From Larkinella terrae (lineage in GTDB: Bacteria; Bacteroidota; Bacteroidia; Cytophagales; Spirosomataceae), in the NCBI RefSeq assembly GCF_009668025.1, contig NZ_WJXZ01000006.1:1-64000 (forward strand): a stretch of 64,000 nt of DNA, written 5' to 3'. The notes beneath the pieces are model-generated. The model was not told where the DNA came from, did not search any database, and saw only the letters and a program-made list of their open reading frames with translations. The position numbers and the translations under genes were made by a program. Below, one piece after another: positions 18,491 through 60,320 of this stretch (the stretch's first letter is position 1; every line of letters begins with the position of its first letter).

Positions 18491-18559
18491 CCAAAAATCA
18501 ACTAGTTCGCGCTGACTATAACTGAAAACAAAATAGCTACTGAAAATCCTTTCGATTTA

Positions 18560-32952: not shown

Positions 32953-33854
32953 GCGAGGTAACCGGATATCAGCTAACCAAAGCCTTCTATCGACTTGTAG
33001 GCGATAGTGAGGAAATTCAAAAGGCAGTCATGCCCCACCACCAGAGCCTATACACCTGGATATGCGAACTCCGTAATCGTATTCAGATATACGATCCTAA
33101 AGCCGAAATATTGGACTTGCCACGCGAGTACACCATGAAAATGACGTTCATCGGTTCGCCTGTGAAGCTAAAGTCCTGCATTGAAGATTTGATTAAATGG
33201 GGCGTGATTGAATTGGTTACTAAGGGTAAAAACGATTATACGGGCTCCACCAAAGTAAAACTTAGCTGTTCATTTATGAACAAGTACTGTACAGCTAATG
33301 AACAGCTACCGAACAGCAACAGTACAGCTACCGAACAGCCATCGAACACAATAAAAACAGATAAAACAGAAGAAACAGAATTAACAGTAAAAACAGAAGA
33401 AAACGGGAAAGGCGCTGACGCGCCCGAACAGCAAGTTGAAACTGTTTTTGTTAAACCTACTGACCTGACGGCGCAAAGCGCCCCCACCACCCCCCCGGTT
33501 CCGGCCGCCCCCCCACCACCCCCAAAGCCTGCCCGAACAAGTCCGCCGGAAACCTCGCTGCCGTTCGGCGAGAATTTCAGAGTCGCCTGGGAACGCTGGC
33601 TGGCTTACCGAAGGGAACGGCATTTACCCGCCTACAAACCCATTGGTTTATCCAGTGCGCTATCTGAACTGGAAACGCTGGCCGATCAAAACGAAGTAAC
33701 CGCCATTGCAATCATCAACCAAAGTATCAACAAAAACTGGCAAGGACTCTTTGCTCTCAAATCCAATGACAACGGAAACAAAATCCCCCGCACCCCTCCA
33801 CCAGTTACTGCCCGAATTGAACCCGTCGCTGGCCGTCGGTTCGGAAAGTGGTAG
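32949..33854 (+). CDS. phage replication protein, O-like
   Basis: The N-terminal 110 residues look like a winged-helix DNA-binding domain. A low-complexity Thr/Glu linker follows, then a Pro-rich segment (PPVPAAPPPPPKP), and then a C-terminal helical domain (FRVAWERWLAYRRERH ... IINQSINKNWQGLFAL) of the type that contacts helicase loaders. This two-domain design and the adjoining DnaC-like gene suggest an origin-binding replication protein. The Pro segment is encoded by runs of up to seven C. Confidence 0.7.
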   Translation: MSEVTGYQLTKAFYRLVGDSEEIQKAVMPHHQSLYTWICELRNRIQIYDPKAEILDLPREYTMKMTFIGSPVKLKSCIEDLIKWGVIELVTKGKNDYTGSTKVKLSCSFMNKYCTANEQLPNSNSTATEQPSNTIKTDKTEETELTVKTEENGKGADAPEQQVETVFVKPTDLTAQSAPTTPPVPAAPPPPPKPARTSPPETSLPFGENFRVAWERWLAYRRERHLPAYKPIGLSSALSELETLADQNEVTAIAIINQSINKNWQGLFALKSNDNGNKIPRTPPPVTARIEPVAGRRFGKW

Positions 33855-34626
33855 CCAATCTGATTTGCCGGAACTGGATGAAGATGAATACCGGGCCGCC
33901 GTGGAAGCTGCAATCTTGGCCGCCCGGAAGGTGAAGCACCAGAACCAGTTAAAACAGGCGTACTACGAACGGCTCCAGCAAATCGACCCGGTTCCCGACA
34001 CGCCGGATAAACTCAGCAAACAAATCCTGTACCGAGGCCAGCAAATCGCCATTGATGAAGGTTGGGAAACGCCGTTCGTGATCGATGAGAACAACCGGGA
34101 GATTTTCAATCAGCTCTGTTTTTTCTTCACCAATCACCCAAAAATGGCCAGTTACGGCCTGTCGCCCAACAAAGGGATTTTGCTGTTTGGCGACGTGGGA
34201 TGTGGCAAGACAGTAGCCTTGAAAATCTTCGAGCGCAACGTTGTCCAGAGCTACAAAACGATCAGTTGCCGCCGGTTATCGCAGCTCTACAGCCAGATTG
34301 GCGATGATGCCATTGTCGAATACAGCCAGATGTTTCACAACGAATACCGCAGCAAGTACTATGATCAGGGTTGGCTGGGCTGCTTCTTTGACGACTTGGG
34401 CACCGAGCGAGACGGCAAGCACTTCGGTAAAAACGTGAACCTGATGGAAGAGGTGTTACAGGGCCGCTACGATAACCAGGCTTGCCGTGGACCTAAAACC
34501 CACATGACTACCAACATTACGCTGGAAGAGGTTCAGGATCGCTACGGAAAGCGGGTACTGGACCGCATGAAGCAAATGTTTAACGTGATCGAGTTTCCGA
34601 TCAATTCAGCCAGTAGACGGAAATGA
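33766..34626 (+). CDS. DnaC-like helicase loader ATPase
   Basis: An AAA+ ATPase of about 286 residues has Walker A GDVGCGKT and Walker B GCFFDDLG. Sensor-like MTTNI follows and an Arg-rich C-terminus (YGKRVLDRMKQMF) is typical of DnaC/IstB-type loaders. It overlaps the O-like gene by 89 bp; the Met used gives a Thr/Ser-rich N-terminus, and the frame is open another 20 codons upstream. It should load the host replicative helicase onto the phage origin. Confidence 0.85.
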   Translation: MTTETKSPAPLHQLLPELNPSLAVGSESGSQSDLPELDEDEYRAAVEAAILAARKVKHQNQLKQAYYERLQQIDPVPDTPDKLSKQILYRGQQIAIDEGWETPFVIDENNREIFNQLCFFFTNHPKMASYGLSPNKGILLFGDVGCGKTVALKIFERNVVQSYKTISCRRLSQLYSQIGDDAIVEYSQMFHNEYRSKYYDQGWLGCFFDDLGTERDGKHFGKNVNLMEEVLQGRYDNQACRGPKTHMTTNITLEEVQDRYGKRVLDRMKQMFNVIEFPINSASRRK

Positions 34627-35159
34627 AAAAGCAGATAAAGCCACAAGATTTAATTATTGGCGCATACCTCTACGATGACTGTGGAGGAATTAGTCAGGTA
34701 GTCGGAATCGGAGATTCTTTTGTAGTGATTGACCAATTCGAGTCAATGAGAAATAGAACACCAATAACCGTCGGTTATGATAAGGTTGAGCCTATTGTAT
34801 TTGATCAACAATGGGCCAACATGTTCGAGCTAAAAGTAAGTTTTGATGATCAGCCCTATAATATTGGCGATGTTTGGTATGAAGCCAAAAAGTACTACAA
34901 GTTGCCGGGATTTGGCAAAAACAAAGTAGAAGCAGTGGCTTATGATATTTATGAGCGAACAAAGGGATTTAAAATCGGCAAGCCATATATCTACAATTAC
35001 GATGCTGCCCCCGATATTCACATGAAACGGGGCGAATACAGGATACATGGCGTTCATCATCTGCAACGGTTTGTTTATTTCCACACTGGAAAGCTATTAA
35101 CGCTTTATCCATCCAAGATACCTAAGCGTCAAAAATCGAACTTTGATGAAGCCGATTGA
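34623..35159 (+). CDS. hypothetical phage protein (178 aa)
   Basis: The gene overlaps the loader stop by 4 nt (ATGA) and is AT-rich. The N-terminal half is beta-rich (DLIIGAYLYDDCGGISQVV) and resembles short domains found in phage early proteins. The C-terminal half ends with HGVHHLQRFVYFHTGKL. No family recognised. Confidence 0.7.
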   Translation: MKKQIKPQDLIIGAYLYDDCGGISQVVGIGDSFVVIDQFESMRNRTPITVGYDKVEPIVFDQQWANMFELKVSFDDQPYNIGDVWYEAKKYYKLPGFGKNKVEAVAYDIYERTKGFKIGKPYIYNYDAAPDIHMKRGEYRIHGVHHLQRFVYFHTGKLLTLYPSKIPKRQKSNFDEAD

Positions 35160-35439
35160 CTGGCCGCGCATCCTGGCTGATCCTGACGACTTCGCCCAGC
35201 ACCTGCCCCGGCTGGATGAGCGGCTTAATTGGGATGCGCTGTGCGAACTCTGCGAGGTTGATCCGTATAAACTGGCCGGGTTTGACCGGCAGTTGATGGT
35301 GCTGATTCGGGACTTCTATCAGATGGTCAAGCGGAGGGAATGGGAAATGGCCAGTGCGATGTATGATGAGATTGTGGCAACCCGCGAACGGTTGCTAAAG
35401 AATATTGGGGCAACAGAACTTAAACCACAACTTGTATGA
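35146..35439 (+). CDS. hypothetical early protein (97 aa)
   Basis: A helical acidic protein starting MKPIDWPRILADPDDFAQHL; it overlaps the previous gene by 14 nt. A TTG one codon upstream is in frame. The next small gene overlaps its stop (ATGA), which supports coding by coupling. Function unknown. Confidence 0.7.
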   Translation: MKPIDWPRILADPDDFAQHLPRLDERLNWDALCELCEVDPYKLAGFDRQLMVLIRDFYQMVKRREWEMASAMYDEIVATRERLLKNIGATELKPQLV

Positions 35440-35612
35440 ATGCCTTTATGATAATCATTGGAGTTCTTGACGCCATACTTGGGCTGATTATGCTTAACGG
35501 ATCTTTTTATGAATCCTTTAACAGTTCTGGCAGACTTGGAGCCAGGGTAATGTCTACCCTGTTTTTGCTCAGCTCTATTCTTTTAATTTCATCCGTATTG
35601 ATTCGATTCTAA
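35436..35612 (+). CDS. small membrane protein (58 aa)
   Basis: Two hydrophobic segments (FMIIIGVLDAILGLIML and MSTLFLLSSILLISSVLI) flank a short polar loop. The start is ATGA-coupled to the preceding gene. This is a tiny inner-membrane protein of the phage early region; a holin is unlikely at this position, and superinfection exclusion is only a guess. Confidence 0.6.
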   Translation: MNAFMIIIGVLDAILGLIMLNGSFYESFNSSGRLGARVMSTLFLLSSILLISSVLIRF

Positions 35613-35641
35613 CTTAAACCGCAGCCGGTGGACTGAAAGCT

Positions 35642-35878
35642 ATGACAGAAGTAATCATAACTGATGAAGCGGGAAATGTAATTCCCCCTGAAATTCATAA
35701 TGTGACATTTGAGAATCAGGCAATAAAGAGCCCAAAAATCGGGTTGCGACCAGGGAGATACAACCTAAAAATCAGAGAAAGTCCAATACCTGAAATCTCT
35801 ATTCAAATCAAAATTTCTTCAAAATACCGTCTTGTCAGATGGTTCAATGACCTAATCGAAAAGCTATGGCAACTCTAA
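35642..35878 (+). CDS. hypothetical early protein (78 aa)
   Basis: A short protein with a beta-rich start (MTEVIITDEAGNVIPPEIHN) and a basic tail. The 29-nt gap before it follows the small membrane protein, and its 3' end overlaps the next gene by 13 nt. No family recognised. Confidence 0.6.
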   Translation: MTEVIITDEAGNVIPPEIHNVTFENQAIKSPKIGLRPGRYNLKIRESPIPEISIQIKISSKYRLVRWFNDLIEKLWQL

Positions 35879-36096
35879 AAATAATCTGCCCGCACTGCCA
35901 AAAGGAGGGCCTGAAGTCGCGAGTATATGAAGGGGCGTCCATGTCAACGCTCATCCATTATTCGCCGGGACATTATGATGAGCGAGGGAATTATCACTCC
36001 CATTCCAATCCGAACACGGTAACGACGGACTATTCGTGTTCAAACGGGCATCAGTTTGTGGTAAAAAAGAAGCATGGAAAGCAGTGGATTTCTTGA
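35866..36096 (+). CDS. zinc-finger-like small protein (76 aa)
   Basis: CPHC near the N-terminus and CSNGH near the C-terminus could bind one zinc. The middle has several His and Tyr residues (YSPGHYDERGNYHSHSN). It is the last rightward gene before the leftward PIN cassette, separated by 18 nt. Possibly a nucleic-acid-binding accessory protein; unproven. Confidence 0.65.
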   Translation: MATLKIICPHCQKEGLKSRVYEGASMSTLIHYSPGHYDERGNYHSHSNPNTVTTDYSCSNGHQFVVKKKHGKQWIS

Positions 36097-36114
36097 AAAA
36101 GGCAACCAGTTGAA

Positions 36115-36774
36115 TCACATAAGATTTTCAAATAGCCCGCCCTTCAACTCTGGTTTTTTTGTAGCAGGCTTTACAAACATGGGGATGTGAGTTTTAAAGC
36201 CATATATTTTATCGCCACCTCTATTTAAGTTGAAATTTTCAAAATAAGTGCCTATACAAGGCAAAGCTATTTCCTTGGCAACAGGTATAAATGTCTTTTT
36301 ATCGCCTGTAAATGTAATATCAGCATTTATGTACTTTGCTGTGGCGGCTATCATAAAATCTTTCGATAACCATTCTCTGCACGAAGCCCAATTATTGCCT
36401 AAAGCATTATTTCTAGCTAGAAAGTCATTAATTGATTTTTTGTCTGAGAGGTGCGAGAACAGGCTTCTTTGCATCAACGCTACCGGTTCTGAATAAGATA
36501 CCACTTCAATATCTTTCCCTTGAAGAGACTCCAATATTTCCTCAATTATACCACTTTCGATTGCGTCTATTCTTTCGAATTTTACTACATCCACGATTTC
36601 GGCAATCGTGATAGCGGATATGTAAAACTTCGATTTCTTTACTTTACATAAAATTTCCAGAAGTGCTTTTACGCATTTTACTCTTTCTTCTTTGCTGTGC
36701 GGATGAAGCAAATCCAGGATAACTGTAGTATCTAAAAATACCTTTTTGCAATCCTCAAAAGTAAGACTAGCCAT
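36115..36774 (-). CDS. PIN-domain protein, putative nuclease effector
   Basis: The fold begins KVFLDTTVILDLLHPHS with Asp14, continues TIAEIVDV (Glu near 60) and ends with FMIAATAKYINADITFTGDK, giving the acidic triad/quartet of PIN ribonucleases. At 219 residues it is longer than VapC toxins, with an added C-terminal tail of about 45 residues. It overlaps the upstream 250-residue gene by 8 nt and both are about one third GC, unlike the phage genes beside them. The pair resembles a toxin-antitoxin or defence cassette, but the partner is not a known antitoxin. Confidence 0.8.
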   Translation of the reverse strand: MASLTFEDCKKVFLDTTVILDLLHPHSKEERVKCVKALLEILCKVKKSKFYISAITIAEIVDVVKFERIDAIESGIIEEILESLQGKDIEVVSYSEPVALMQRSLFSHLSDKKSINDFLARNNALGNNWASCREWLSKDFMIAATAKYINADITFTGDKKTFIPVAKEIALPCIGTYFENFNLNRGGDKIYGFKTHIPMFVKPATKKPELKGGLFENLM

Positions 36775-37519
36775 ATAAGTCGTTCTGTTGCCTTGATTTT
36801 AATAATAAATCCAACGGGTCATTTTTTGTAAATAGATCCGGGTGTTTGGCGTTGAAATCATTGACCAGCTCAAGCAAAGTTTTACTACTCTTTACTTTAA
36901 ATGCGACCAGTTCAATAGGAATTCTTTTTTTAGTGTATTTATCAATTTTAAAACGAACTTCAAATTGCAAAGTCCCGTTTTTATAATAATCCCTTAGTTC
37001 TTGATCCTGCTGATCAGAGATAGGTACTGTAAAAGGTATTTCTTCTTCGTGTTGACTAATTACGATGGAAGAAGGGTAATTAAATTGACGATTTCCAATC
37101 CTGGTAATCTCCCCTGTGACTGAGTCAGTAATATAGTAGTTTCCACGAACAGGCTTTCGATCTTTTGTTACAACCGCAACTCTATCGTTGTCGGTATCAT
37201 AGGCTTCGATGAAATAACCCTTTCGGACATAAAACAATAGGTTATTTAATAGTTTTTTTTGGTACGCAGGTACCTTTTCCCTTTTTTCTGCCCTTCCCAT
37301 CAACTCAATAAATTCATCGTGATGAACTCTGTTTGAGGTGGAAACATCAACCTGGTAACAGTTTCCCTGAATAGCTGAAAGGGTACAGTTTGAATCCCTT
37401 TGTAAACGTAATGCTGCGTTTAAATTTCTTAATAATTGAGATAGCCGGTAAATGGAAATGCCATTTTCTTCTGAAAGTGTACCGACAGGGTCGTCTATTT
37501 TCAATGAGAATTTATACAT
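36767..37519 (-). CDS. unknown partner of the PIN protein (250 aa)
   Basis: The start follows an AT-rich leader on the minus strand and the 3' end overlaps the PIN gene by 8 nt, so the two are translated together. The N-terminus is FSLKIDDPVGTLSEENGISI and the middle carries a beta-rich block with SVTGEITRIGNRQFN. It is too long for a typical VapB antitoxin and shows no obvious DNA-binding domain. It may sense or restrain the PIN protein; this is inference from the gene pair only. Confidence 0.75.
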   Translation of the reverse strand: MYKFSLKIDDPVGTLSEENGISIYRLSQLLRNLNAALRLQRDSNCTLSAIQGNCYQVDVSTSNRVHHDEFIELMGRAEKREKVPAYQKKLLNNLLFYVRKGYFIEAYDTDNDRVAVVTKDRKPVRGNYYITDSVTGEITRIGNRQFNYPSSIVISQHEEEIPFTVPISDQQDQELRDYYKNGTLQFEVRFKIDKYTKKRIPIELVAFKVKSSKTLLELVNDFNAKHPDLFTKNDPLDLLLKSRQQNDLYG

Positions 37520-37558
37520 GGCTTTGATTTTTAGGCTTTTATGATATATCTATTTTCA

Positions 37559-37566
37559 CAAAAGTA
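37559..37566 (-). promoter_or_regulatory. -7 box for the PIN cassette
   Basis: Read leftward, TACTTTTG matches TANNTTTG and would start transcription about 32 nt before the 250-residue gene. A TTG lies 23 nt upstream, farther than the usual 19-20, so the promoter may be weak or regulated. Confidence 0.4.
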
Positions 37567-37700
37567 AAGGAACCATCGTCGCCTATTACCAACGCATCCG
37601 TAATTAATTTCATCGCACCGCGCGTTCACTTTCAATTTTTCCGCCAACCTACGCAATCCCCGCAGCTTTCGCAAGTGGTAAGTTATTGATAATTCGCTGT

Positions 37701-37787
37701 TATGTAGAGACTTATAAAATTTATAAGTATTTACTTAAAAATAATTCAGTATTTACTTTGAATTAATTAAGTATCCACTTACATTTG
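37701..37787 (+). promoter_or_regulatory. second early promoter with four phased operators
   Basis: Four 14-bp sites start at 37701 (TATGTAGAGACTTA), 37724 (TAAGTATTTACTTA, perfect), 37746 (TCAGTATTTACTTT) and 37768 (TAAGTATCCACTTA), spaced 23, 22 and 22 bp. TTTG (37757-37760), 19 nt, then TACATTTG (37780-37787) form a consensus promoter. Site 3 overlaps the -33 box and site 4 covers the first two bases of the -7 box, just as at the first early promoter. A 19-nt palindrome (37710-37728) links sites 1 and 2. Confidence 0.75.
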
Positions 37788-37876
37788 TCTATACCAATTC
37801 ACAACGCCCCGCCAAAAGGCCGCATCGGCGGTCCGACCCACGTACCGAAGTAGCGGAGCAAAACGAATCAAGACAG

Positions 37877-38062
37877 ATGAAAAAGCCATTGACTTACAGA
37901 GTGTGCCGATGGAATTCAAAATCTTACTCTTGGGAGCCAATGCATGAGAATGACATGATCCTATGTGAAGCCAAAAAGTTGATTGCGGCTTTGTATTTGT
38001 CAGCTCCGGGTTTCAGGTATCACTATGTAAGAAGTTCAGCCTTTAATCAGCAAGTGCCATGA
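37877..38062 (+). CDS. hypothetical protein (61 aa), first of second early operon
   Basis: A short basic protein (MKKPLTYRVCRWNSKSYSW) that starts about 83 nt after the predicted transcription start of the operator-controlled promoter. Its stop overlaps the next start (ATGA), which begins a chain of tiny coupled genes. Function unknown. Confidence 0.65.
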   Translation: MKKPLTYRVCRWNSKSYSWEPMHENDMILCEAKKLIAALYLSAPGFRYHYVRSSAFNQQVP

Positions 38063-38178
38063 AAGAACTGCTCGCCACCGCCTTCCAGCAACTGCTGGAG
38101 CCTGTCAGCCGCTTCGAGTTCCGCCGTCGGCTTCGGCTGTACCTGGAGATCGTCGCCTTTAGCCGCCTACACCCATGA
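38059..38178 (+). CDS. tiny hypothetical protein (39 aa)
   Basis: An Arg-rich amphipathic peptide (MKELLATAFQQLLEPVSRF, then RRRLRL). It overlaps both neighbours by 4 nt (ATGA on each side), which is the main reason to believe it is translated. Function unknown. Confidence 0.55.
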   Translation: MKELLATAFQQLLEPVSRFEFRRRLRLYLEIVAFSRLHP

Positions 38179-38408
38179 ATGCCAAAATAGACCCGCCAAA
38201 AGTTGGCAACATCCACTGGTCGTGGGATGGCGCCCAGTGGATTCCCTGTACAATTCACAGACTTACCAAGTCGGGCAAGTCATTCCACTGCTACAACGCC
38301 GAATTGGGCTACGGAAGCTATCTGGCGATTCCCAATAAGAAATACCGGTCCAAGCCAGAGCACAAGAAGGACGCAGATTCTAAGCCAGCACTTTTCCATG
38401 CAAGCTAG
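38175..38408 (+). CDS. hypothetical protein (77 aa)
   Basis: A basic protein with two Trp-rich turns (GNIHWSWDGAQWIPCTIHR), resembling a small SH3-like or Tudor-like strand arrangement. It overlaps its neighbours at both ends (4 nt upstream, 11 nt downstream). Function unknown. Confidence 0.6.
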   Translation: MNAKIDPPKVGNIHWSWDGAQWIPCTIHRLTKSGKSFHCYNAELGYGSYLAIPNKKYRSKPEHKKDADSKPALFHAS

Positions 38409-38499
38409 TGACTGGCAACTAATCGCTACGGTCCTGCTGGTGGCCGGGGCTGCCTACGGAATTTGGACACTGATTCGCAACCGAAGAAAGAAACCATGA
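38398..38499 (+). CDS. tiny single-span membrane protein (33 aa)
   Basis: One hydrophobic helix (LIATVLLVAGAAYGIWTLI) is followed by a strongly basic tail RNRRKKP, a positive-inside pattern. Overlaps upstream by 11 nt and downstream by 4 nt (ATGA). Function unknown. Confidence 0.55.
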   Translation: MQASDWQLIATVLLVAGAAYGIWTLIRNRRKKP

Positions 38500-38654
38500 A
38501 GAACTTTTACATCGGCTCACTGCTCACCCTGGCCTCTGTCTTTTTGATCGCCCGGCTGACTGAACCCCGCCCGCTGTGGCAGAAAGTAGGGCTGGTGCTG
38601 CTGCTGATTGCGCTGGCGGCCGGGGCGTGGTGGGTAATTACTGAAACTGCTTAA
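38496..38654 (+). CDS. small two-span membrane protein (52 aa)
   Basis: Two helices (FYIGSLLTLASVFLIARL and VGLVLLLIALAAGAWWVI) with a short loop. ATGA-coupled to the preceding membrane peptide, so the pair may act together. Function unknown. Confidence 0.6.
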   Translation: MKNFYIGSLLTLASVFLIARLTEPRPLWQKVGLVLLLIALAAGAWWVITETA

Positions 38655-38673
38655 CAATTAAACAGATACGACA

Positions 38674-38823
38674 ATGCTTACTATTTTCTGCAAAGACAAA
38701 TCAATCCGAATCCTGCGAAACTTCCACCCCTCTTTTCAGGGCAACAGCTATGATATTGAGGAACTGGCGCGGGAACTCGAAGGAAAGAACTACCTGCGGC
38801 ATGAGTGGGTAAAGGTTCGATAG
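38674..38823 (+). CDS. hypothetical protein (49 aa)
   Basis: A short basic protein (MLTIFCKDKSIRILRNF at the start, KNYLRHEWVKVR at the end). It is preceded by an A-rich leader and ends just before the structured gene-free region. Function unknown. Confidence 0.5.
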   Translation: MLTIFCKDKSIRILRNFHPSFQGNSYDIEELARELEGKNYLRHEWVKVR

Positions 38824-39391
38824 ACACCACCGGGGCGGTCGGCAACGTCGCCAGACCAACAGCCAATGGTCCAATGCCGCCCCAAGTCATTAGCGCCCTG
38901 CGCCGGGATATTCCGGTAACAAAGCTGTAGGATAGGTTGGAGCGACCGGGGCGGTTGATAGCCGTTCCGGCGTAGGGCGCAAAAGAGAAAGGTTAGGGTT
39001 TAGAAAAAGGATGCACTGTGCCGGCCGGATTGGGTCGGCAGCAGTCTCAGACCGAGGCCCCAGAAGATACACCAAAGGCCGCGTGAGGCCATAGCCCGAA
39101 GAAGCCGCAAGGTCAGGAATCGGCATCAAGTACCGGGTGAGTCAAGAGGTTTCCAGTGGTGGACGGTACCCTGAACTGGACTGAAAGTTGGAATAGAGGC
39201 CAACCGCGCCGGGCAACGTTCCCGGCAAACATTAGCCCCGGTAAAATTACCGTAGGCGGACCTTCGGGACACGGTACAAGTGTGAGGGTGACACATTAAC
39301 ACCAACTACCGCACCGGGGCTATTCTTTCAAACAAAACCGCCCGCTCACGTGCCGGGAAGCTGTTGAGCGGGCGGGTAACAACTAAAAATC
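38824..39391 (+). ncRNA. large structured non-coding region, candidate RNA
   Basis: These 568 nt have no plausible ORF in a phage where genes otherwise overlap, and are GC-rich. Perfect or near-perfect stems include GGGGCGG/CCGCCCC (38832/38877), a 14-bp stem with one G-U pair (38893-38906/38967-38980), TGCCGGC/GTCGGCA (39019/39034), GTACCG/CGGTAC (39130/39164), GCCGGG/CCCGGC (39208/39221), GCCCCGGT/ACCGGGGC (39235/39313) enclosing TACCGT/ACGGTA and GTGT/ACAC hairpins, and an 11-bp stem 39338-39348/39365-39375. No tmRNA, RNase P or group I/II intron core was found. Strand is inferred from the operon. Confidence 0.5.
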
Positions 39392-39724
39392 ATGACGAAT
39401 CTACAACAATCACTGCAAATGAACAACATCCCCGTCTGCATCATTAGGGATCAGGCCGAACGGGTCACGGTCTACGACCCGCTGCCGGTCCACAACAAAG
39501 CCGAACTGGCGTACCTGCTGGAAGATCGGTTCGGCATTCCGGCGGATATGCTGGAAGTGGAGGTTCACGATCTGGGCGCATTGGGCTATCTGGTTTTCTA
39601 CAGCTGCGAGATGCGGAGACTGCGGCCGCTGGAACTGGCGGAAACAGCTATCACTAAGGGCGGCAAGAAGGATGATAACGGGTATTGGAGCAACAGCATC
39701 TGGTTAGACGAACTGACGGCATGA
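39392..39724 (+). CDS. hypothetical protein (110 aa)
   Basis: Starts 16 nt after the final 11-bp stem of the structured region, so its translation could depend on that structure. The protein is acidic, with KAELAYLLEDRFGIPADMLE in the middle. The stop overlaps the next ATG. No family recognised. Confidence 0.7.
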   Translation: MTNLQQSLQMNNIPVCIIRDQAERVTVYDPLPVHNKAELAYLLEDRFGIPADMLEVEVHDLGALGYLVFYSCEMRRLRPLELAETAITKGGKKDDNGYWSNSIWLDELTA

Positions 39725-40062
39725 CACCGACTGAACACCTCATCAAAGACTTCTGCCGCCGTCACCCGCGCATCTGGCACATGGAAATGGCGGAGAGCCT
39801 CGAACGCTTCTGTTGGCGGGGCAAGTACCTGCACCAGCGGGAAAAGGAGTCGGCGGTTCAAATGGCTTACTGCTACGCCAGCGCCTTCATCAACGAATGC
39901 CTGCCCGATACCGGCACCAATCGCCGTCCGTGGCTGCAAATGAACCTGGTGGCCCTTCTGCTGAAAGCCAACGGGCAATATGGGCGGTGCAAGGAACTGC
40001 ACTTTGATGCCGGTCTGGCCCTGCTCCAATCCCAACCTCTGAACGAATACGAACCGATATGA
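39721..40062 (+). CDS. hypothetical protein (113 aa)
   Basis: A helical protein (HLIKDFCRRHPRIWHMEMAE). The frame is open further upstream, but the ATG used is the ATGA-coupled one. It precedes the annealing-protein gene, also with a 4-nt overlap. Function unknown. Confidence 0.7.
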   Translation: MTPTEHLIKDFCRRHPRIWHMEMAESLERFCWRGKYLHQREKESAVQMAYCYASAFINECLPDTGTNRRPWLQMNLVALLLKANGQYGRCKELHFDAGLALLQSQPLNEYEPI

Positions 40063-40580
40063 ACACCGAAGTGGATAACGATATAAAAGTGCTGACCGCA
40101 CCCATTCAGCCCGACGAAATTGAATGGCGGGTATCGCAGACGATGGAAGCTAAAAACGGTAAGCCCGCCAAGATGATGGTCGTTCCGTATATCAATAACC
40201 GGTGCGTTATGGAACGCTTCGACGGGCAGTTTGGCTGGCGGAACTGGTCGAACAAGATTGAGGAAGTAGAGGGCGGTTTTCTGTGTACCATCTCCGCAAT
40301 CCTGCCCACCGGGGAAGTGGTCAGCAAAACTGATGGGGCGAGCCGAACGAACGTCGAGCCAATCAAGGGCGGTATATCCGATGCCATGAAGCGGGCGGCT
40401 GTGCAGTTTGGACTTGGCCGGGGACTCTACAACTACCCGAAAGTTTTTATCGAAGTGGACGGCAAATTTATTCCGGACTGGGGATTTCGGCTATTGAACG
40501 CGCTGGTTGTCTCCATCAACTCCGGTAAAGCCCAACGGGAGATCATCGTACTCAAGGAAGCACAGGCAAAGAATTTATAA
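40059..40580 (+). CDS. Rad52/22-family single-strand annealing protein
   Basis: The 173-residue protein follows the Rad52/Rad22 family plan: RVSQTMEAKNGKPAKMMVVP, YINNRCVMERFDGQFGWRNW, a hairpin LCTISAILPTGEVVSKTDG, and the conserved ISDAMKRAAVQFGLGRGLYN segment. Such proteins anneal complementary strands in phage recombination and replication-linked repair. It is found close to a RusA-like resolvase, which fits a recombination module. Confidence 0.88.
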   Translation: MNTEVDNDIKVLTAPIQPDEIEWRVSQTMEAKNGKPAKMMVVPYINNRCVMERFDGQFGWRNWSNKIEEVEGGFLCTISAILPTGEVVSKTDGASRTNVEPIKGGISDAMKRAAVQFGLGRGLYNYPKVFIEVDGKFIPDWGFRLLNALVVSINSGKAQREIIVLKEAQAKNL

Positions 40581-40634
40581 CCCCCTCACCGCCGGGGCCT
40601 GACGCACTCCGGCTAACCACTTACACGCACTTTC
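40580..40634 (+). promoter_or_regulatory. GC hairpin leader, TAACC type
   Basis: The spacer holds GCCGG/CCGGC (40591-40595 with 40609-40613) flanked by TAACC upstream and GGCTAACC downstream. Similar leaders precede the genes at 44360 and 45327. Confidence 0.4.
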
Positions 40635-41063
40635 ATGAAACTGGCAAACCTGACAAAAGCGATCAAGCTAAACGAGCGGCTGGCAACTCTCAATAAAGAG
40701 ATTCACCAGATTGAACTGTTGGCAAAGAAACTCGTAGAGGGCCGAAATAAGACAGTACTAGTGATCAATTCGGTCGATTTGGATAAGAAGGCTGAAAAGT
40801 TATCAGAAGTCAAATTTGATGCAGATGGATCACTAGTCTACCCCAACGAGGATAGTGATGATTGCTCTTATTCGAGCCTATTTTCTCCTTTTGGGATGGT
40901 TCAAATCCGCACATCCCCAAAGGAAAAGGCCTTGACCAGCATTCGCGGGGATTTTGAAGTAAACGACATGACTGCACTAGAGGTGTTGGGTGTGCTCATT
41001 CTATGCAAACAACACGAAAAGGCTGAAATCCTCAAGAAGTTAGCCCGATTAGGAATCCAATGA
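40635..41063 (+). CDS. hypothetical protein (142 aa)
   Basis: A helical N-terminus (KAIKLNERLATLNKEIHQIE) leads to an acidic middle and a helical C-terminus (HEKAEILKKLARLGIQ). Its stop overlaps the next start by 4 nt. Lower GC than its neighbours. Function unknown. Confidence 0.65.
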   Translation: MKLANLTKAIKLNERLATLNKEIHQIELLAKKLVEGRNKTVLVINSVDLDKKAEKLSEVKFDADGSLVYPNEDSDDCSYSSLFSPFGMVQIRTSPKEKALTSIRGDFEVNDMTALEVLGVLILCKQHEKAEILKKLARLGIQ

Positions 41064-41251
41064 CGCCCCACTGGAAGCACACCGCGCCCCGCGAGGGCCG
41101 GGCGGTGGGGTGGCTGCTGGTGCTGCTGATACTGTTTAAACTCCTTGCTTATGAAACTTCGAAGCGACGACACGAGTCCCGTCCTGGTCTGGGTCAGTAT
41201 ACTCGGAACGCTGATTTTCATTCTCACCTGTCTTTTAAACTGATGCCATGA
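41060..41251 (+). CDS. small membrane protein (63 aa), uncertain 3' part
   Basis: ATGA-coupled to the preceding gene, with one hydrophobic helix (AVGWLLVLLILFKLLAY). The last 30 residues overlap another plausible gene in a different frame and look unconserved, so the true product may be one or the other. Function unknown. Confidence 0.4.
   Translation: MTPHWKHTAPREGRAVGWLLVLLILFKLLAYETSKRRHESRPGLGQYTRNADFHSHLSFKLMP
41151..41243 (+). CDS. tiny membrane peptide (30 aa)
   Basis: An ATG within the previous frame opens MKLRSDDTSP followed by a hydrophobic helix (VLVWVSILGTLIFILTCLL). Composition is a convincing membrane anchor. It overlaps the 63-residue frame by its whole length; possibly both are made, as with embedded phage genes. 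Confidence 0.45.
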   Translation: MKLRSDDTSPVLVWVSILGTLIFILTCLLN

Positions 41252-41388
41252 AAACCCTCTACCGCCTTGAATTTGCCTTCTGCGCAATGGGATTCGTTGC
41301 CCTGCTGCTGCTCAGCCGCCTGTGGCCGCACCGCGAGAAGGAAACGAAAACGACCGGGTACACCGGGGAAAACGAAATGTGGGTATGA
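41248..41388 (+). CDS. small single-span membrane protein (46 aa)
   Basis: The hydrophobic segment FAFCAMGFVALLLLSRLW is followed by a charged tail (HREKETKTTGYT). It starts 4 nt after the 30-residue peptide and its stop is ATGA-coupled to the next gene. Function unknown. Confidence 0.6.
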   Translation: MKTLYRLEFAFCAMGFVALLLLSRLWPHREKETKTTGYTGENEMWV

Positions 41389-41753
41389 AAATGATCCTAT
41401 CCAAGGTTGCCGACTGGTTCTGGACGCTGCTCAATCACCGTCGCCTGATCAAGTTTTACAAGGCGGAATTGATGAAGCCCTATGAGGTTCGCATTCAGGA
41501 ACTTCAGCTTCGACACGACGAAATGATCATCAAGCACGACAGTCCAATTCTTCGAATCATGGCTGGCGGATTTATCAAGGCGATGAAGAACCTTCCTGCC
41601 GAGAACTACATGGTGCTGACTTTTGACGATGGTGTTGGATTTTACGATGTCACCGTTCAGCGAAAAATGGGCGAAACACCACTGGATCAGCTTACGGCGG
41701 CAAAGAAGCGAATTGCAGAATTGGAACGCCAGCTAAAAGCCACTGAGCCATGA
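41385..41753 (+). CDS. hypothetical protein (122 aa)
   Basis: An amphipathic N-terminus (MKMILSKVADWFWTLLNH) leads to a helical body and a C-terminal coiled coil (QLTAAKKRIAELERQLKAT). The frame is open upstream, but the ATG overlapping the previous stop is preferred. May associate with the membrane peptides beside it. Function unknown. Confidence 0.7.
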   Translation: MKMILSKVADWFWTLLNHRRLIKFYKAELMKPYEVRIQELQLRHDEMIIKHDSPILRIMAGGFIKAMKNLPAENYMVLTFDDGVGFYDVTVQRKMGETPLDQLTAAKKRIAELERQLKATEP

Positions 41754-41896
41754 ACGCCCTGCCGATCTGCGCCCTGCTGGCGGGGCTGGCCCTGCTGATC
41801 GCCTACCCGCAGGCATACGCGGTGGTGATGAGCGTGTCGGGGCTGGTGATGCTGTGGATTGTAGGGTGGGATAACTGTAAAGCAATGAAACGATGA
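41750..41896 (+). CDS. small two-span membrane protein (48 aa)
   Basis: Two hydrophobic helices (ICALLAGLALLIAYPQA and VVMSVSGLVMLWIVGW) end with a short basic tail. Both ends overlap neighbouring genes by 4 nt. The fourth membrane peptide in 0.8 kb; function unknown. Confidence 0.6.
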   Translation: MNALPICALLAGLALLIAYPQAYAVVMSVSGLVMLWIVGWDNCKAMKR

Positions 41897-42471
41897 AAAA
41901 AGGACGCAAGAAAACACCGGGGGCGCCCTATATCAAAACAGAGAAGGGATTTCCGTACTACTACGTCACCTACGCGCCGGGCAAACGAAAAACGCTTCAC
42001 CGGATGGTTTGGGAGCAGGCCAACGGCCCGGTGCCGGAAAATCACGTAATCCGTTTTCGGGATCAAGATACGCTGAACTGTGCGCTTGAAAACCTCGAAC
42101 TGATTCACCGGCGGGAAATCACCGGTCGAATCCGGAATTCAGAGCGCCAGTCAGAAGGAATGCGCCGAATGTACCAAACCCCGGAAGGGAAAGCCCTCAG
42201 CGCCCGCAAGGCAGAAAGATTACGGCAGCACTTCCAGGATGGCACTTTTCCACTCGAACAGCGATCCGCTAAAATCAGCGAAATGATCCGTACGGGCAAG
42301 ATGCGGAACCCATTCGTTGAACTGGATGACAATGTAGTTGCCTATCAGCTATTTCCCCATAAACCCGAAATGGCCGCTTTTGTCCTTGCGAATCACCCTG
42401 AATTAATTGCCGTTAAGCGCCAGCAAACACTTTTAAAACGAGCCCTAAAACAACATGAAAACGCTGATTGA
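41893..42471 (+). CDS. HNH-like protein with altered active site
   Basis: The segment LHRMVWEQANGPVPENHVIR...LNCALENLELI follows the phage HNH homing-endonuclease pattern (HRLVWE, NGPIPEG, HxDGDxxNN, IENL). The usual catalytic HHxDGD is replaced by RFRDQD, so at least one His is missing and catalysis is doubtful. Residues 75-135 are a basic, repeat-binding-like helical part. It may be a decayed homing endonuclease kept for DNA binding. Confidence 0.7.
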   Translation: MKKGRKKTPGAPYIKTEKGFPYYYVTYAPGKRKTLHRMVWEQANGPVPENHVIRFRDQDTLNCALENLELIHRREITGRIRNSERQSEGMRRMYQTPEGKALSARKAERLRQHFQDGTFPLEQRSAKISEMIRTGKMRNPFVELDDNVVAYQLFPHKPEMAAFVLANHPELIAVKRQQTLLKRALKQHENAD

Positions 42472-42895
42472 CACCACCCGCGATAAGCTTCGCAAACTGG
42501 CCGGACAAGATTATATCTTCCCTGATAACCGGGAAGGGCGGTTTATATCCTTTGACATTTCACCCAACGAAGATGTGACCTTTACCACCAGTGTGGGTAC
42601 TTACACCAAGCAGGTTAGCGAAGTTCCGTTTTTTATCGAACGCTTTCGAACCCCCAGCGGACTGCCCGCATTACCCGCAATCCAAGCGCTTGATCAAGCT
42701 AAACAGCAGGTTGACAATATGGTCCCGCTGGGGGAGCTGGCTGACATACTAATGGACAGTATCCGAAAGGTAAAAGGCAATAAAGAATACATTGAGCAGG
42801 CACGCGCCATTAATGATCAGGCCAAAACGCTGGTTGATATTGCCAAGGTGAGAGTTGAAGCCCTGAAAGTGGTCAGTCAGTTTCAAAGTCAATGA
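42455..42895 (+). CDS. hypothetical protein (146 aa)
   Basis: It overlaps the HNH-like gene by 17 nt. The N-terminus is beta-rich (GRFISFDISPNEDVTFTTSV), the C-terminus helical (AINDQAKTLVDIAKVRVEAL). Phage proteins of this plan are common in Bacteroidota, but the role is unknown. Confidence 0.7.
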   Translation: MKTLIDTTRDKLRKLAGQDYIFPDNREGRFISFDISPNEDVTFTTSVGTYTKQVSEVPFFIERFRTPSGLPALPAIQALDQAKQQVDNMVPLGELADILMDSIRKVKGNKEYIEQARAINDQAKTLVDIAKVRVEALKVVSQFQSQ

Positions 42896-43188
42896 CCAAG
42901 CGATCCCAACCGGCCCTGCCCGCCCCGCTCTGGTCCGACGAGCGACTGGAAGCCGCCAGCGCCTACCTGCAAAGCCAGTGGCGGTTCACTACCTGGCAAA
43001 GCTTCCTGGAAGCCCTGGCAGCGGCCCGCACCGAGAGCGACCTTCGGCGGATTCTGGTGGAGGTCAACCGCGACAAGCTGCCGGATGATGTGCATCCCGA
43101 CCGGGCGCGGTGCTACGTGATTGACCGGGCGAAGGAATTGGGCATTCGGCTGAGTAAGAGGGGCGGGTTTCGGTGGGTGGATGATTAA
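42892..43188 (+). CDS. hypothetical protein (98 aa)
   Basis: ATGA-coupled to the preceding gene. It is basic and helical (SFLEALAAARTESDLRRILV) and ends with RGGFRWVDD. Higher GC than the gene that follows. Function unknown. Confidence 0.7.
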   Translation: MTKRSQPALPAPLWSDERLEAASAYLQSQWRFTTWQSFLEALAAARTESDLRRILVEVNRDKLPDDVHPDRARCYVIDRAKELGIRLSKRGGFRWVDD

Positions 43189-43243
43189 AAAGTATTAGGT
43201 TAAGTATTTGAAAATGTGTATCTTATAGTAAAAAATAGTAACA
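43189..43243 (+). promoter_or_regulatory. AT-rich leader with two AAGTATT half-sites
   Basis: AAGTATT-N5-AAGTATTTG lies between two otherwise tightly packed genes. Each copy is half of the phage operator palindrome, but the second arm is missing, so binding is uncertain. TATCTTAT downstream is only a weak -7 match. Confidence 0.35.
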
Positions 43244-44299
43244 ATGAAACGGTTTGATGAGCGGCAGCACATGCTCTTAAAGTTGCTAAGCAAGTGTATT
43301 CTTGATGATCTGGTCATTTATGAGTCCGATCATCAAATGGATGATGAAACACCAGAAGCGTTCGAAGCTCGACTGATCCAACTTAGGGAATCAAAAGACC
43401 GGCAGGGGTTAGATGCTGAGTTAAAAAAAATCAAAGAACGGGAATCTTACCTGAACGAAATGCTTCGAGATGATCGGATTTTCTTCAAAAATTCTATATC
43501 AGACTGGATTGACGCAGTATCAGACGAAAACCCCGAATTTGAAAAAGGGTTTGACCGGATATTTACTACGTTTCGGCCAGTAGCATATTACCTGCCGGAG
43601 GCTACCATCAGCGTGATTAATGCCAATCCCAACCTGTACATTCGAAAGCTACACAGTTTGTTAAAGGACTTGCCAAATGAAACAGGCTTGCTGATCGTTC
43701 GACTGCCCGATAAAGAAGACTTTGATCTAATGTTTATCTACGATTTGACGCCCTATGGAATTTGTGGGTTGATACTCGGGAATAGCGCCAAATCAGGCAA
43801 AAAGGTTTACGTCTTAGACTCTTTTGCTGTCCCGATGAGTGCTATCAAAAATCCGGAGAAAGTCTGGCTGCCTTCAAAAAAGCCAAATCTGGCTGCGAAA
43901 TCAGACGCAGCTATTCGAGCAGGTCACGGTGTGCTCACCCTAACTATATTACTGTTCATCCATTTCTTCGAAGTGGAAAGAGTGATTGTTGTTCAACCCA
44001 ATGGCAACGATTCCCGATACAAAACGGTAGAGCTTAATGAACAGCGATATAGCTCAAATCTAACCTATCCTGTCAATATAATTGACGCCCATTGGTTTAC
44101 GACTATCATTCGGGATGATCCGTTTTTGGTATCGGGTCACTGGCGTCGCCAACCTTACGGCCCGGGTCGTAGCGACTTTAAAATGAAATACATCGGCACA
44201 TACCAGAAAAACGGCTACCATCGAAGGGCAAAACACGAATCTGAAACGGACGAAAAAATTTCAGATACACAAACTGACCCGGAGGTCGAAAAAGAATAA
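43244..44299 (+). CDS. AT-rich unknown cargo protein (351 aa)
   Basis: The longest unassigned gene of the second early region and AT-rich compared with its neighbours. The N-terminus is helical and charged (KELRES-like heptads), the middle beta-rich (ETGLLIVRLPDKEDFDLMFI, GKKVYVLDSFAVPM), and the C-terminus contains NIIDAHWFTTIIRDDPF. It has its own AT-rich leader. No family recognised; own promoter, odd composition and isolation suggest a moron carried by the prophage. Confidence 0.7.
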   Translation: MKRFDERQHMLLKLLSKCILDDLVIYESDHQMDDETPEAFEARLIQLRESKDRQGLDAELKKIKERESYLNEMLRDDRIFFKNSISDWIDAVSDENPEFEKGFDRIFTTFRPVAYYLPEATISVINANPNLYIRKLHSLLKDLPNETGLLIVRLPDKEDFDLMFIYDLTPYGICGLILGNSAKSGKKVYVLDSFAVPMSAIKNPEKVWLPSKKPNLAAKSDAAIRAGHGVLTLTILLFIHFFEVERVIVVQPNGNDSRYKTVELNEQRYSSNLTYPVNIIDAHWFTTIIRDDPFLVSGHWRRQPYGPGRSDFKMKYIGTYQKNGYHRRAKHESETDEKISDTQTDPEVEKE

Positions 44300-44359
44300 C
44301 CTAACCACCCCGCCCGCTGCCCCACGTGAGAGCCGGGGCTGGGCCTAACCAGAAGAGAG
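44300..44359 (+). promoter_or_regulatory. GC hairpin leader, CACGTG type
   Basis: GCCCC/GGGGC (44319-44323 with 44335-44339) encloses CACGTG and is flanked by CTAACC and GGCCTAACC, then AGAAGAGAG and the start codon. The CACGTG word also occurs in the loop of the final stem of the structured region before 39392. Confidence 0.4.
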
Positions 44360-44554
44360 ATGAAACAGCAATTCACGATCACGATTCCCGCGCTGAACCT
44401 AGCCAGATTGTTCACATTGGCGGGAAAGTACGAGCCAGTCGCAACACCGGTCGGCGGGACTAATATGGGGACCGTACAGGTAGCACTAAACTGCACCCCG
44501 CAGGAGTTATTCGATTTAGGTGGAAACATGATGAAACCATCGCCGTATCAATGA
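44360..44554 (+). CDS. hypothetical protein (64 aa)
   Basis: A short protein (MKQQFTITIPALNLARLF) with an AGAAGAGAG stretch immediately before the start that could bind the ribosome. The stop overlaps the RusA-like gene. Function unknown. Confidence 0.6.
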   Translation: MKQQFTITIPALNLARLFTLAGKYEPVATPVGGTNMGTVQVALNCTPQELFDLGGNMMKPSPYQ

Positions 44555-44904
44555 CCACCGAACTAACCATACTAGGCCACGTGCCGGGGATGAACACGCT
44601 TCTTCGCCTTCACTGGTCAGACCGGGCGGATATTCTCCGGAAATATCAGTGGGAACTGATGGCGCAGAAGCCGCCCCAACACCGCGGGAAAATCAAGGTT
44701 GATCTGTGGCGTCATAGCTGCGGTAGGGGGCCCGATCAGGACAACCTGGTATCGACCGCCAAAACATTGCTTGATGCGCTGAAAAAGAACAAAACCATCG
44801 TTGATGACAACCCGAGTATTCTGGTTGAACTCAACTGTCAGCACGTCAAGGTCAGCCGCAAGGTGCAGCCGTATTCTGTTCTCCGCATAACAGACATTGA
44901 ATAG
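44551..44904 (+). CDS. RusA-like Holliday junction resolvase
   Basis: The 117-residue protein has the RusA signature: Asp62 and Asp64 in GPDQDNLVSTAKTLLDAL, then TIVDDNPS with Asp85/86. These acidic residues bind the catalytic metal in RusA. It should cut four-way junctions in phage recombination. It lies downstream of the Rad52-like gene and directly before an HNH gene. Confidence 0.85.
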   Translation: MTTELTILGHVPGMNTLLRLHWSDRADILRKYQWELMAQKPPQHRGKIKVDLWRHSCGRGPDQDNLVSTAKTLLDALKKNKTIVDDNPSILVELNCQHVKVSRKVQPYSVLRITDIE

Positions 44905-44906
44905 CC

Positions 44907-45293
44907 ATGCCAACGAAGAAAGAACGCGAGATCATTTTTAACAAGTTCAACGGCAGGTGTGCATACTGCGGCTGTGAGCTGACAAAGGGCTGGCATGTCG
45001 ATGAACTAGAGCCCTGTATTCGGAATCATCGATGGGATCGCCAGAAACGAAAGTTTGTTCATGACGGTACGTATCAGCACCCAGAACGACTCAACATTGA
45101 TAACCAGATGCCAGCGTGTGCCAGTTGCAATATCAACAAGCACAGCGAGTCACTAGAAGGGTTTCGGCAGTTGATCGCTGGTTTCCTGAAATCGCTGAAC
45201 CGTGATTCCACGCAGTACAAGATCGCCAAACGCTACGGCTTTATTCAGGAGGTCGAAAAGCCGGTGGTGTTCTATTTCGAAACATTTAACTAA
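44907..45293 (+). CDS. HNH endonuclease
   Basis: GRCAYCG near the N-terminus and MPACASCNINKHSES near the C-terminus give four zinc-binding Cys. Between them HVDELEPC and HPERLNIDNQ lie where the catalytic residues of the HNH fold occur, although the first motif reads WHVDE rather than DHI. The 128 residues match phage HNH proteins, which often take part in packaging or DNA degradation. Here it lies in the early region, some 3.5 kb from the terminase. Confidence 0.8.
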   Translation: MPTKKEREIIFNKFNGRCAYCGCELTKGWHVDELEPCIRNHRWDRQKRKFVHDGTYQHPERLNIDNQMPACASCNINKHSESLEGFRQLIAGFLKSLNRDSTQYKIAKRYGFIQEVEKPVVFYFETFN

Positions 45294-45326
45294 CCGCCCG
45301 GAGCCGGGCCTAACGAAAGAGTGATT
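45294..45326 (+). promoter_or_regulatory. GC hairpin leader, TAACC type
   Basis: GCCCGG-AG-CCGGGC (45296-45309, perfect) is flanked by CTAACC and GGCCTAAC, then GAAAGAG before the start codon. It is the third member of the leader set. Confidence 0.45.
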
Positions 45327-45593
45327 ATGACCTCAAGAGATTTTTGTTTTTGGCTACAAGGCTTCTTTGAAATCAGCAATGTTGCTTACCTTGATGCAAG
45401 CCAAACTTCGGTAATTAAGAAGCATCTGGATTTGGTGTTCTACCACGAAATTGATCCTTCTTATTCCGACGATCCAAGGGTACAACAACAGATGAATCAG
45501 ATTCACAACGAACCGAAACCGCCAAAGCCGGTGCCATTTCATCCTTTTGCTGAGGGGGAACCATTTCCAGATAAACCAATCATGCGTTGCTAA
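45327..45593 (+). CDS. conserved small phage protein (88 aa)
   Basis: The N-terminus MTSRDFCFWLQGFFEISN and DASQTSVIKKHLDLVFYHEI resemble a short protein that recurs in many tailed phages; its function is not known. A GTG two codons upstream is in frame, but the ATG is preferred. The Pro-rich C-terminus appears lineage-specific. Confidence 0.7.
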   Translation: MTSRDFCFWLQGFFEISNVAYLDASQTSVIKKHLDLVFYHEIDPSYSDDPRVQQQMNQIHNEPKPPKPVPFHPFAEGEPFPDKPIMRC

Positions 45594-45595
45594 CC

Positions 45596-46036
45596 ATGAC
45601 CACCACCCCGCCCAAACTCCCGCCCGCCAAACGGGACACTTACGGACTGATCCTGCAAGGGCTGAAATTCGTCGCCATTGAACACTATGACCAGATGGGC
45701 GGATCAGGTAGCTTCCGTCAGGAGCAGAAGTTTCACCTGAATAAACTGATCGCACTCTTTGAAAAGGATCAGGCCAGCCTGTACCGGCTGATTCAGCAGC
45801 ACGGCGACGGCATGGAATTGAACGCGCCGTTTTACGATGCCATTGACCTGGTTCGGGAGATGATCGAAACGGCGGCATCACTCAGCCAGCAGCAGAACCC
45901 GGAAGGCGGCACCGTCGGCATCCCGCTCATGCGACAGATATTGGCCGAGATCCGGGCGGGCAACTTCGCTACGGTGGAGGAACTACCCGAAGGTGTGCAA
46001 TCAGTCAAACAACTAAACACCCCGGCGGGGGAATGA
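45596..46036 (+). CDS. hypothetical protein (146 aa)
   Basis: A Pro/Lys N-terminus (MTTTPPKLPPAKRDTYGL) precedes a helical body (IDLVREMIETAASLSQQQNP). A TTG three codons earlier is in frame. No family recognised. Confidence 0.7.
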   Translation: MTTTPPKLPPAKRDTYGLILQGLKFVAIEHYDQMGGSGSFRQEQKFHLNKLIALFEKDQASLYRLIQQHGDGMELNAPFYDAIDLVREMIETAASLSQQQNPEGGTVGIPLMRQILAEIRAGNFATVEELPEGVQSVKQLNTPAGE

Positions 46037-46040
46037 TACG

Positions 46041-46334
46041 ATGGAAAATACTGAGGCTATTATTGAATCCCCTGAGCCAATCCACAATTGGTTCGAGCTG
46101 ACCTACGCGCAGTACCTGACAATCCCCCGTTCTGTACTGCAATCCATGCCGGCCGAATGGCAGCACCGGTTTGTCGAGTGTCTTGAGCAGTTGGACGAGA
46201 CGATTGACTGGTACCCAAAACAGGGCCGGTATTGGGTATCCCTGAAAGACGACAAGGGGTGCTATGTGTCAGATCCGTTGATGGATTACGATCGTGGCAG
46301 AAGACGCATTGACTACCGTTCAGAGCAACAATAG
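46041..46334 (+). CDS. hypothetical protein (97 aa)
   Basis: An acidic protein with many Trp residues (QSMPAEWQHRFVECLEQL). It lies 4 nt after the previous stop and 2 nt before the next start. Function unknown. Confidence 0.7.
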   Translation: MENTEAIIESPEPIHNWFELTYAQYLTIPRSVLQSMPAEWQHRFVECLEQLDETIDWYPKQGRYWVSLKDDKGCYVSDPLMDYDRGRRRIDYRSEQQ

Positions 46335-46336
46335 CC

Positions 46337-46681
46337 ATGACCGACACCACCCAACCCACCCCCGCGCTGATCGCGCAGAAGGCAAAGAAGCCCGATCTCT
46401 TCATTGACATCGAACGCCCCAAGTTCGGGACTGAGAAGTATTCTGCATCCATCAGCATAGGTAACCTGCAAGGGAAAGGCGATACTCCAACGCTGGCTTT
46501 GAAAGACCTGAAAGCGAAGGCGAAGCAACTGATCAAGAAGCTGGAAAACATCGAACAGATGGAAATGTATCACCGTCAGGATGTGTTCGAGAGTAAGATG
46601 GTTCCGGGCTTTTACGGTACTAGCCATGCGATGTCTATCCAGACCAAGCGCAAGAAGTACGAACGTAAGCGACCGTTTTGA
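46337..46681 (+). CDS. hypothetical protein (114 aa)
   Basis: Starts MTDTTQPTPALIAQKAKK; the middle has a beta-hairpin-like block and LKAKAKQLIKKLENIEQMEM, and the C-terminus is basic (TKRKKYERKRPF). It could bind nucleic acid by its charge. No family recognised. Confidence 0.65.
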   Translation: MTDTTQPTPALIAQKAKKPDLFIDIERPKFGTEKYSASISIGNLQGKGDTPTLALKDLKAKAKQLIKKLENIEQMEMYHRQDVFESKMVPGFYGTSHAMSIQTKRKKYERKRPF

Positions 46682-46684
46682 GTT

Positions 46685-46750
46685 ATGCGGAAGCACATTT
46701 ACTGCCCCGGCGAAGTTCCGGAAGCGTTTGTTCAACTGGTAAACGAATAG
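46685..46750 (+). CDS. possible 21-residue peptide
   Basis: A short frame (MRKHIYCPGEVPEAFVQLVN) lies between two genes. The length is too small to separate from chance, though Cys and Pro content is protein-like. Confidence 0.25.
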   Translation: MRKHIYCPGEVPEAFVQLVNE

Positions 46751-46773
46751 AATCAAAATAAGCATCTACGAAA

Positions 46774-47357: not shown

Positions 47358-47358
47358 C

Positions 47359-48044: not shown

Positions 48045-48069
48045 TCAAACCATTTAAACCAAAACGACC

Positions 48070-48273: not shown

Positions 48274-48278
48274 AAATT

Positions 48279-48360: not shown

Positions 48361-48375
48361 TAATTAACTGATTCA

Positions 48376-60319: not shown

Positions 60320-60320
60320 T

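Follow-up and report, generated by a model that had tools for sequence, protein, structure and literature searches.

A structured gene-free stretch in an early operon of a Larkinella terrae prophage as a possible orphan phage RNA

To our knowledge, few large structured phage RNAs have been described. ROOL forms a homo-octameric cage, and the expression of GOLLD goes up in phage lysis. Intercistronic and leader regulatory structures are another kind of structured element and are usually much shorter than 568 nt. According to PMC12286853, both ROOL and GOLLD often occur near tRNA islands, many GOLLD members exceed 800 nt, and the function of GOLLD is unknown.

The region compared here with these RNAs lies between two early open reading frames (ORFs) of a prophage of Larkinella terrae. 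The window, which is the whole 64-kb stretch of DNA that was analyzed, belongs to a 7.85-Mb genome and contains the prophage from ~31.9 kb onward. The first base of an IMG/VR record (IMGVR_UViG_2890798260_000003; 58,914 bases) was computed to correspond to window position 31903. This record is identical to the window across the 568-nt region and in the searched proteins, and it therefore represents the prophage itself rather than a second, independent source of evidence.

Prophage setting and coding status of the region

The early genes of the prophage encode the replication and recombination proteins and the HNH protein listed in Table 1, and they are followed by the terminase, portal, and head genes. 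Among the terminase matches listed, six of the eight with 98% coverage are from Bacteroides or Phocaeicola phages, with 36% identity. These matches and the promoter type described below agree with a host in the Bacteroidota, and a search with a host protein returned mixed organisms. The genome also carries a second Rad52-like gene (C6:869193-869687), the product of which is 71% identical to the prophage copy, and Rad52-like relatives are common in the family, being present in 54 of 222 genomes, its own included. A minus-strand cassette of two ORFs with a low GC content (0.34 to 0.38) is located within the early region at 36115-37519. It encodes a PIN-domain protein (PF01850; E 1.6e-9) and, overlapping and upstream of it, a 250-amino-acid (aa) ORF without a Pfam match, and PADLOC gave no match for the cassette; the two genes could be a toxin-antitoxin pair or a moron pair.

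Table 1. Coordinates of the region, its predicted parts, and neighboring features in the window
Feature	Position	Strand	Evidence
DnaC-like helicase loader	33706-34626		Early gene
Bacteroidota-type promoter-like site	37757-37787	+	TTTG-N19-TACATTTG; ahead of operon leading into region
Upstream 49-aa ORF	38674-38823	+	Codon score +0.263; no Pfam hit (E up to 1)
568-nt gene-free stretch between two early ORFs	38824-39391	+	ORF boundaries; six-frame codon scores; MFE z -3.04 (38820-39395)
5' structured domain (predicted)	38828-38982	+	z -4.43; tested pairs P 0.90-1.00 across five folding contexts
Middle linker	38985-39204	+	z -0.09; predicted structure no more than chance
3' structured domain (predicted)	39205-39378	+	z -3.34; tested pairs P 0.60-1.00 across five contexts
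A-rich linker and start codon of 39392 ORF	39376-39394	+	Predicted unpaired probability 0.74-0.99 (39376-39389), 0.51-0.94 (39390-39394)
Downstream 110-aa ORF	39392-39724	+	Codon score +0.342; ORFan in searches made
Rad52/Erf-like single-strand annealing protein	40059-40580	+	PF04098 E 1.5e-14; phrog_1097 E 2.4e-43
HNH protein	41893-42471		Early gene
RusA-like resolvase	44551-44904		Early gene

The boundaries given by the first-pass annotation are exact, as the upstream plus-strand ORF stops at 38823 and the ATG of the next one is at 39392. No plus-strand ORF of at least 50 aa was found within 38824-39391. A 47-codon GTG frame at 39156-39296 has a codon score of -0.161, and three minus-strand ORFs of 59 to 79 aa that overlap the region, one of them only partly inside it, score from -0.23 to -0.37 and had no Pfam match at E values up to 1. 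Over the whole 568 nt, the six frames score from -0.055 to -0.258, and the prophage reference genes score from -0.017 to +0.386, with all 20 of them exceeding every frame of the region. The nearby ORF 37877-38062 is also low (-0.196), so the codon score alone is no proof against coding. On the codon scores together with the Pfam searches, a coding or decayed gene was rejected, and the earlier claim that no gene is present holds in all six frames by codon score. The codon use of both flanking ORFs still resembles that of coding sequence (Table 1), which indicates that decay has not reached them.

The region had also been called the only large gene-free stretch among tightly packed genes. It is the only one in the second early operon, but five such gaps are present across the window (18259-18559, 37528-37876, 38824-39155, 61862-62408, and 62724-63213) when plus-strand ORFs of at least 45 aa and minus-strand ORFs of at least 100 aa are counted as genes and the minimum gap is set to 280; the third of these is the studied region, shortened by the 47-codon frame. 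The description of the region as GC rich is borne out, with a GC content of 0.577 versus 0.486 for 33001-50000. Its U content is 15.7%, and A exceeds U, with an AT skew of 0.26; of 577 other windows, 25 have a skew at least this high.

The strict Bacteroidota-type pattern TTTG-N17-21-TAnnTTTG has two matches on both strands of the 64 kb, one at 37757-37787 on the plus strand, ~1 kb upstream of the region, and one at 31512-31482 on the minus strand. The pattern follows the consensus derived from Bacteroides fragilis, with TAnnTTTG at -7 and TTTG near -33, as given in PMC7366714. The plus-strand site could be the source of the region's transcription within the early operon. The minus-strand match precedes the minus-strand ORF 30828-31391, which has no Pfam match and, judging by where it lies, may be a repressor or lysogeny gene. 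Within the region itself, no strict Bacteroidota-type promoter was found, with a partial -7 element only, at 38933, and neither an E. coli-type promoter nor a terminator-like site was detected there.

Predicted folding of the region

As a plus-strand RNA, 38820-39395 has a minimum free energy (MFE) of -223 kcal/mol and a z score of -3.04 against 100 dinucleotide shuffles, versus -217 kcal/mol and -2.6 for the minus strand. A second run with 60 shuffles gave z scores of -2.6 and -2.2, respectively. When 52 prophage tiles of equal length, two of them overlapping the region, were compared relative to their shuffles (20 per tile), 2 folded better than the region. The limits of the structured blocks were picked after the fold was seen, and an unbiased scan of the plus strand in 160-nt windows (n = 750) was therefore run. 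The windows at 39224 (z -4.19), 38824 (z -4.09), and 38944 ranked second, third, and sixth, and z scores fell below -3 in 3 of the 11 windows lying within the region versus 10 of the 732 outside it, although these windows overlap and are not independent. Taken as a whole, the region has an ordinary ensemble diversity (20 of 60 shuffles reach it) and an ordinary number of confident pairs (23 of 60). The earlier description of many long-range stems goes too far: excess structure is present in two blocks, but the middle 220 bases are at the level of chance and confident pairs are not in excess.

The scan's top-ranking 160-nt window, at 60624 (z -4.22), lies elsewhere in the prophage, in 60300-60880. 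The 576-nt tile at 60300 has a z score of -3.88 versus -2.6 for the studied region in the same run; this segment overlaps the ORF 60321-60746, and a comparison with Rfam gave nothing convincing (best E 0.053, a fungal snoRNA).

The prediction for the 5' block is a hairpin with a three-way junction (38832-38839/38876-38883), which carries two inner hairpins, and then a stem of 17 uninterrupted pairs (38893-38909/38964-38980); 2 of 300 shuffles attain a stem of this length. The stem of 14 bp, including a single G-U pair, that was noted earlier is real and forms part of these 17 pairs. Six of the 45 pairs in the block are G-U, and its MFE is -77.7 kcal/mol on the plus strand versus -68.1 kcal/mol on the minus strand, a difference of 9.6 kcal/mol; both features point to the plus strand as the one favored by the folding model for this block. 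The 3' block contains a predicted hairpin (39208-39226), a helix (39233-39242/39313-39322) that closes a multi-helix element, and a terminal stem (39338-39353/39360-39375). The 11-bp terminal stem of the first-pass annotation is present within the latter (39338-39348/39365-39375), though 16 of 300 shuffles also contain a perfect inverted repeat of 11 bp. In the 3' block, 1 of 47 pairs is G-U and the minus strand is better by 3.6 kcal/mol (-76.6 versus -73.0 kcal/mol); the plus strand is not favored here.

The region also contains an 11-base direct repeat, ACCGGGGCGGT, which is reached by 14 of 300 shuffles. The element ACCGGGGC occurs in three copies (38829-38836, 38945-38952, and 39313-39320), each in a different predicted helix. 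Its complementary copy, GCCCCGGT, at 39235-39242, is able to pair with two of the three, and alternative folds are therefore possible.

Search for relatives

In DNA searches, the region had no match in phages and only two short matches in plasmids (E 0.1). Its own genome contains a single copy, in addition to a 23-base match at an E value of 0.32. A blastn search of 149 related genomes, its own included, returned the own copy and otherwise only short matches of 19 to 58 bases (E 0.002 to 0.09) in 22 related genomes, and in 390 genomes of the order, its own was the only one at an E value of 0.001. For viral loci, the best 80 of 110 matching the Rad52-like protein and the best 80 of 89 matching the terminase were taken, one in each set being the prophage itself. 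Against the 79 Rad52-linked and 79 terminase-linked loci (158 in all, with possible overlap between the sets), the best blastn E value was 1.1 and nhmmer found only the prophage's own copies. Three exact words of 17 to 19 bases from the region were found among viral contigs in the prophage only. In addition, 20 host regions fetched around Rad52-like genes gave a best E value of 2.2, and they contain no other prophage gene save one portal-like match that is 22% identical.

Covariance models of both blocks, when run on 89 of the 158 viral loci, recovered only the window itself. Because both models were built on a single sequence, that of the window and its identical copy, they could miss distant relatives; stricter filters were applied in the genome searches. 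In 395 genomes of the phylum, model R1 matched G625, G108, and G876 (E 0.002, 0.19, and 0.29, each calculated per single genome); one of these matches is inside a long reading frame and two are opposite such frames, and they are therefore regarded as chance. Model R2 gave two matches in 222 genomes of the family (G065, E 0.35; G002, E 0.84) and its own genome only at an E value of 0.1 over the 395 genomes of the phylum.

The 39392 ORF had no PHROG, Pfam, or PADLOC match. Searches of 148 other related genomes and of phages gave no relative of its product, which was found among viral contigs in the same prophage only; its sole match in genome contigs sits in an unrelated frame of 2,283 aa. The proteins encoded at 43244 and 42455 were also found in viral contigs only in the same prophage, and the latter had no match in phages. 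The region and the downstream protein have no relatives in the searches made, and this early operon was thus not found elsewhere. No description of the region turned up when the literature on large phage or prophage RNAs and on Spirosoma prophages was searched.

Possible roles and comparison with known RNAs

Computation shows the absence of a coding signal, the excess structure of the two blocks, the plus-strand preference of the 5' block, and the mostly unpaired start of the 39392 ORF. Among four readings of the region, an orphan structured phage RNA carried on the plus strand in the early transcript is considered the likeliest, at somewhat less than an even chance. Such an RNA would be transcribed within the second early operon, probably from the promoter-like site 37757-37787, and would comprise two stable domains with a flexible linker between them. 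The stable blocks may shield it from RNases, by which it would outlast the mRNA or be excised from it, and it might then act early in the phage cycle by binding to a protein or an RNA of the host or the phage or by assembling with itself. A more specific form, in which the region represents a new class of large phage RNA without Rfam kin whose two rigid domains and flexible linker possibly join to other copies via hairpin loops, is doubtful. The loop at 39214-39220 (CAACGUU) contains a six-base palindrome, and the loop at 38844-38849 (AACGUC) is a further possible pairing partner, as read from the sequence; by a hand estimate, the frequency of ACGU in the region does not exceed that expected from base composition. 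The unstructured middle 220 nt, the ordinary ensemble diversity and number of confident pairs, the two better-folding tiles, the slightly better folding of the 3' block as the minus strand, the lack of a strict promoter and of an intrinsic terminator in the region, and the absence of homologs in the searches made are points against a phage RNA. If it is transcribed as a stable RNA, the region would add an RNA class from a phage lineage with an early operon not found elsewhere.

A cis-acting intercistronic structure, with stems that stay in the polycistronic mRNA and determine how stable the message is or how strongly the flanking genes are expressed relative to each other, for instance by blocking exonucleases or insulating the 39392 start region, comes next in probability together with a nonfunctional spacer, both being serious but less likely rivals. 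A role in cis agrees with the position of the region, which is flanked by two ORFs on the same strand and follows a single promoter-like site, and with the very stable hairpin that ends 16 nt ahead of a mostly unpaired, A-rich start region. In addition, Bacteroidetes are described in PMC6847099 as lacking Shine-Dalgarno sequences and as tuning initiation by mRNA structure. The unpaired probability predicted for the 39392 start is 0.51 to 0.99 over the 16 preceding bases and 0.52 to 0.94 for the ATG, so the stems do not hide it. This argues against the translational control suggested earlier for the gene, insofar as it would act by sequestering the start. The 568 nt are also much longer than such a function should require, and no plus-strand terminator-like site was found in 37400-40200. 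A spacer, either a GC-rich insert or a long-decayed sequence with fortuitous stems, would be consistent with the lack of homologs in the searches made, a GC content unlike that of the surroundings, the unstructured middle part, and the two tiles that fold better against their own shuffles; as an orphan sequence of one prophage, the region may be unselected. Against a spacer, both blocks are outliers relative to dinucleotide shuffles, the 17-pair stem is rarely reached by shuffles, and no gene remnant is recognizable by codon score or Pfam. If the region is only a spacer, it shows how badly single-sequence folding scores can mislead. The least probable reading, which we regard as improbable, is a DNA-level element, with inverted repeats acting in replication or recombination, or a minus-strand RNA. 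A loose minus-strand promoter match at 39426-39396 would read into the region, the minus strand folds nearly as well as the plus strand overall and slightly better in the 3' block, and the gene for the Rad52-like annealing protein lies 0.7 kb downstream. However, loose promoter matches occur at eight other places in the 64 kb, and the 5' block favors the plus strand. A replication origin would be expected near the DnaC-like loader gene, but this gene is ~4 kb upstream of the region.

In a cmscan search of 4,227 Rfam 15 families, a tRNA at 244-320, the sole one in the window and 38.5 kb from the region, was the only match at the gathering thresholds, and at E values up to 10 the matches in the region were all weak and unrelated (best E 0.19, SOX2OT_exon3). 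Group I and group II introns, RNase P, and tmRNA were rejected, as neither Rfam above threshold nor ARAGORN gave a match, in agreement with the earlier remark that such signatures are lacking. A mimic of 23S rRNA was also rejected. On one strand of the host 23S locus, alignment gave a 17-base match with one mismatch, which was reached by 6 of 200 shuffles, and on the other strand the score was reached by 112 of 200. Looser scoring gave a result reached by 36 of 100 shuffles, and the region had no match to the Rfam LSU models. This likeness is therefore taken as chance.

Like the intercistronic and leader structures of bacterial and phage mRNAs, the region carries its stems between two genes that presumably share a transcript, and they end just ahead of a start codon; it differs from them in that the start codon is not sequestered in the predicted fold. 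The first-pass annotation had placed the region in the sense of GOLLD or ROOL RNAs, but membership in either is not supported, given the lack of an Rfam match and the remote tRNA gene. GOLLD is a large structured RNA of phages and prophages, and the region, at 568 nt, differs from it in these respects. ROOL is a large structured RNA without a reading frame in phages and prophages, and the region is of a similar sort, though it also has no Rfam match and lies far from tRNA genes. The likeness to the large phage RNAs would thus lie in a bulky, structured sequence without a reading frame, yet outside the named families. With no counterpart in the collections searched, the region may be a new viral RNA, and the predicted structure is consistent with a possible large phage RNA of an undescribed kind.
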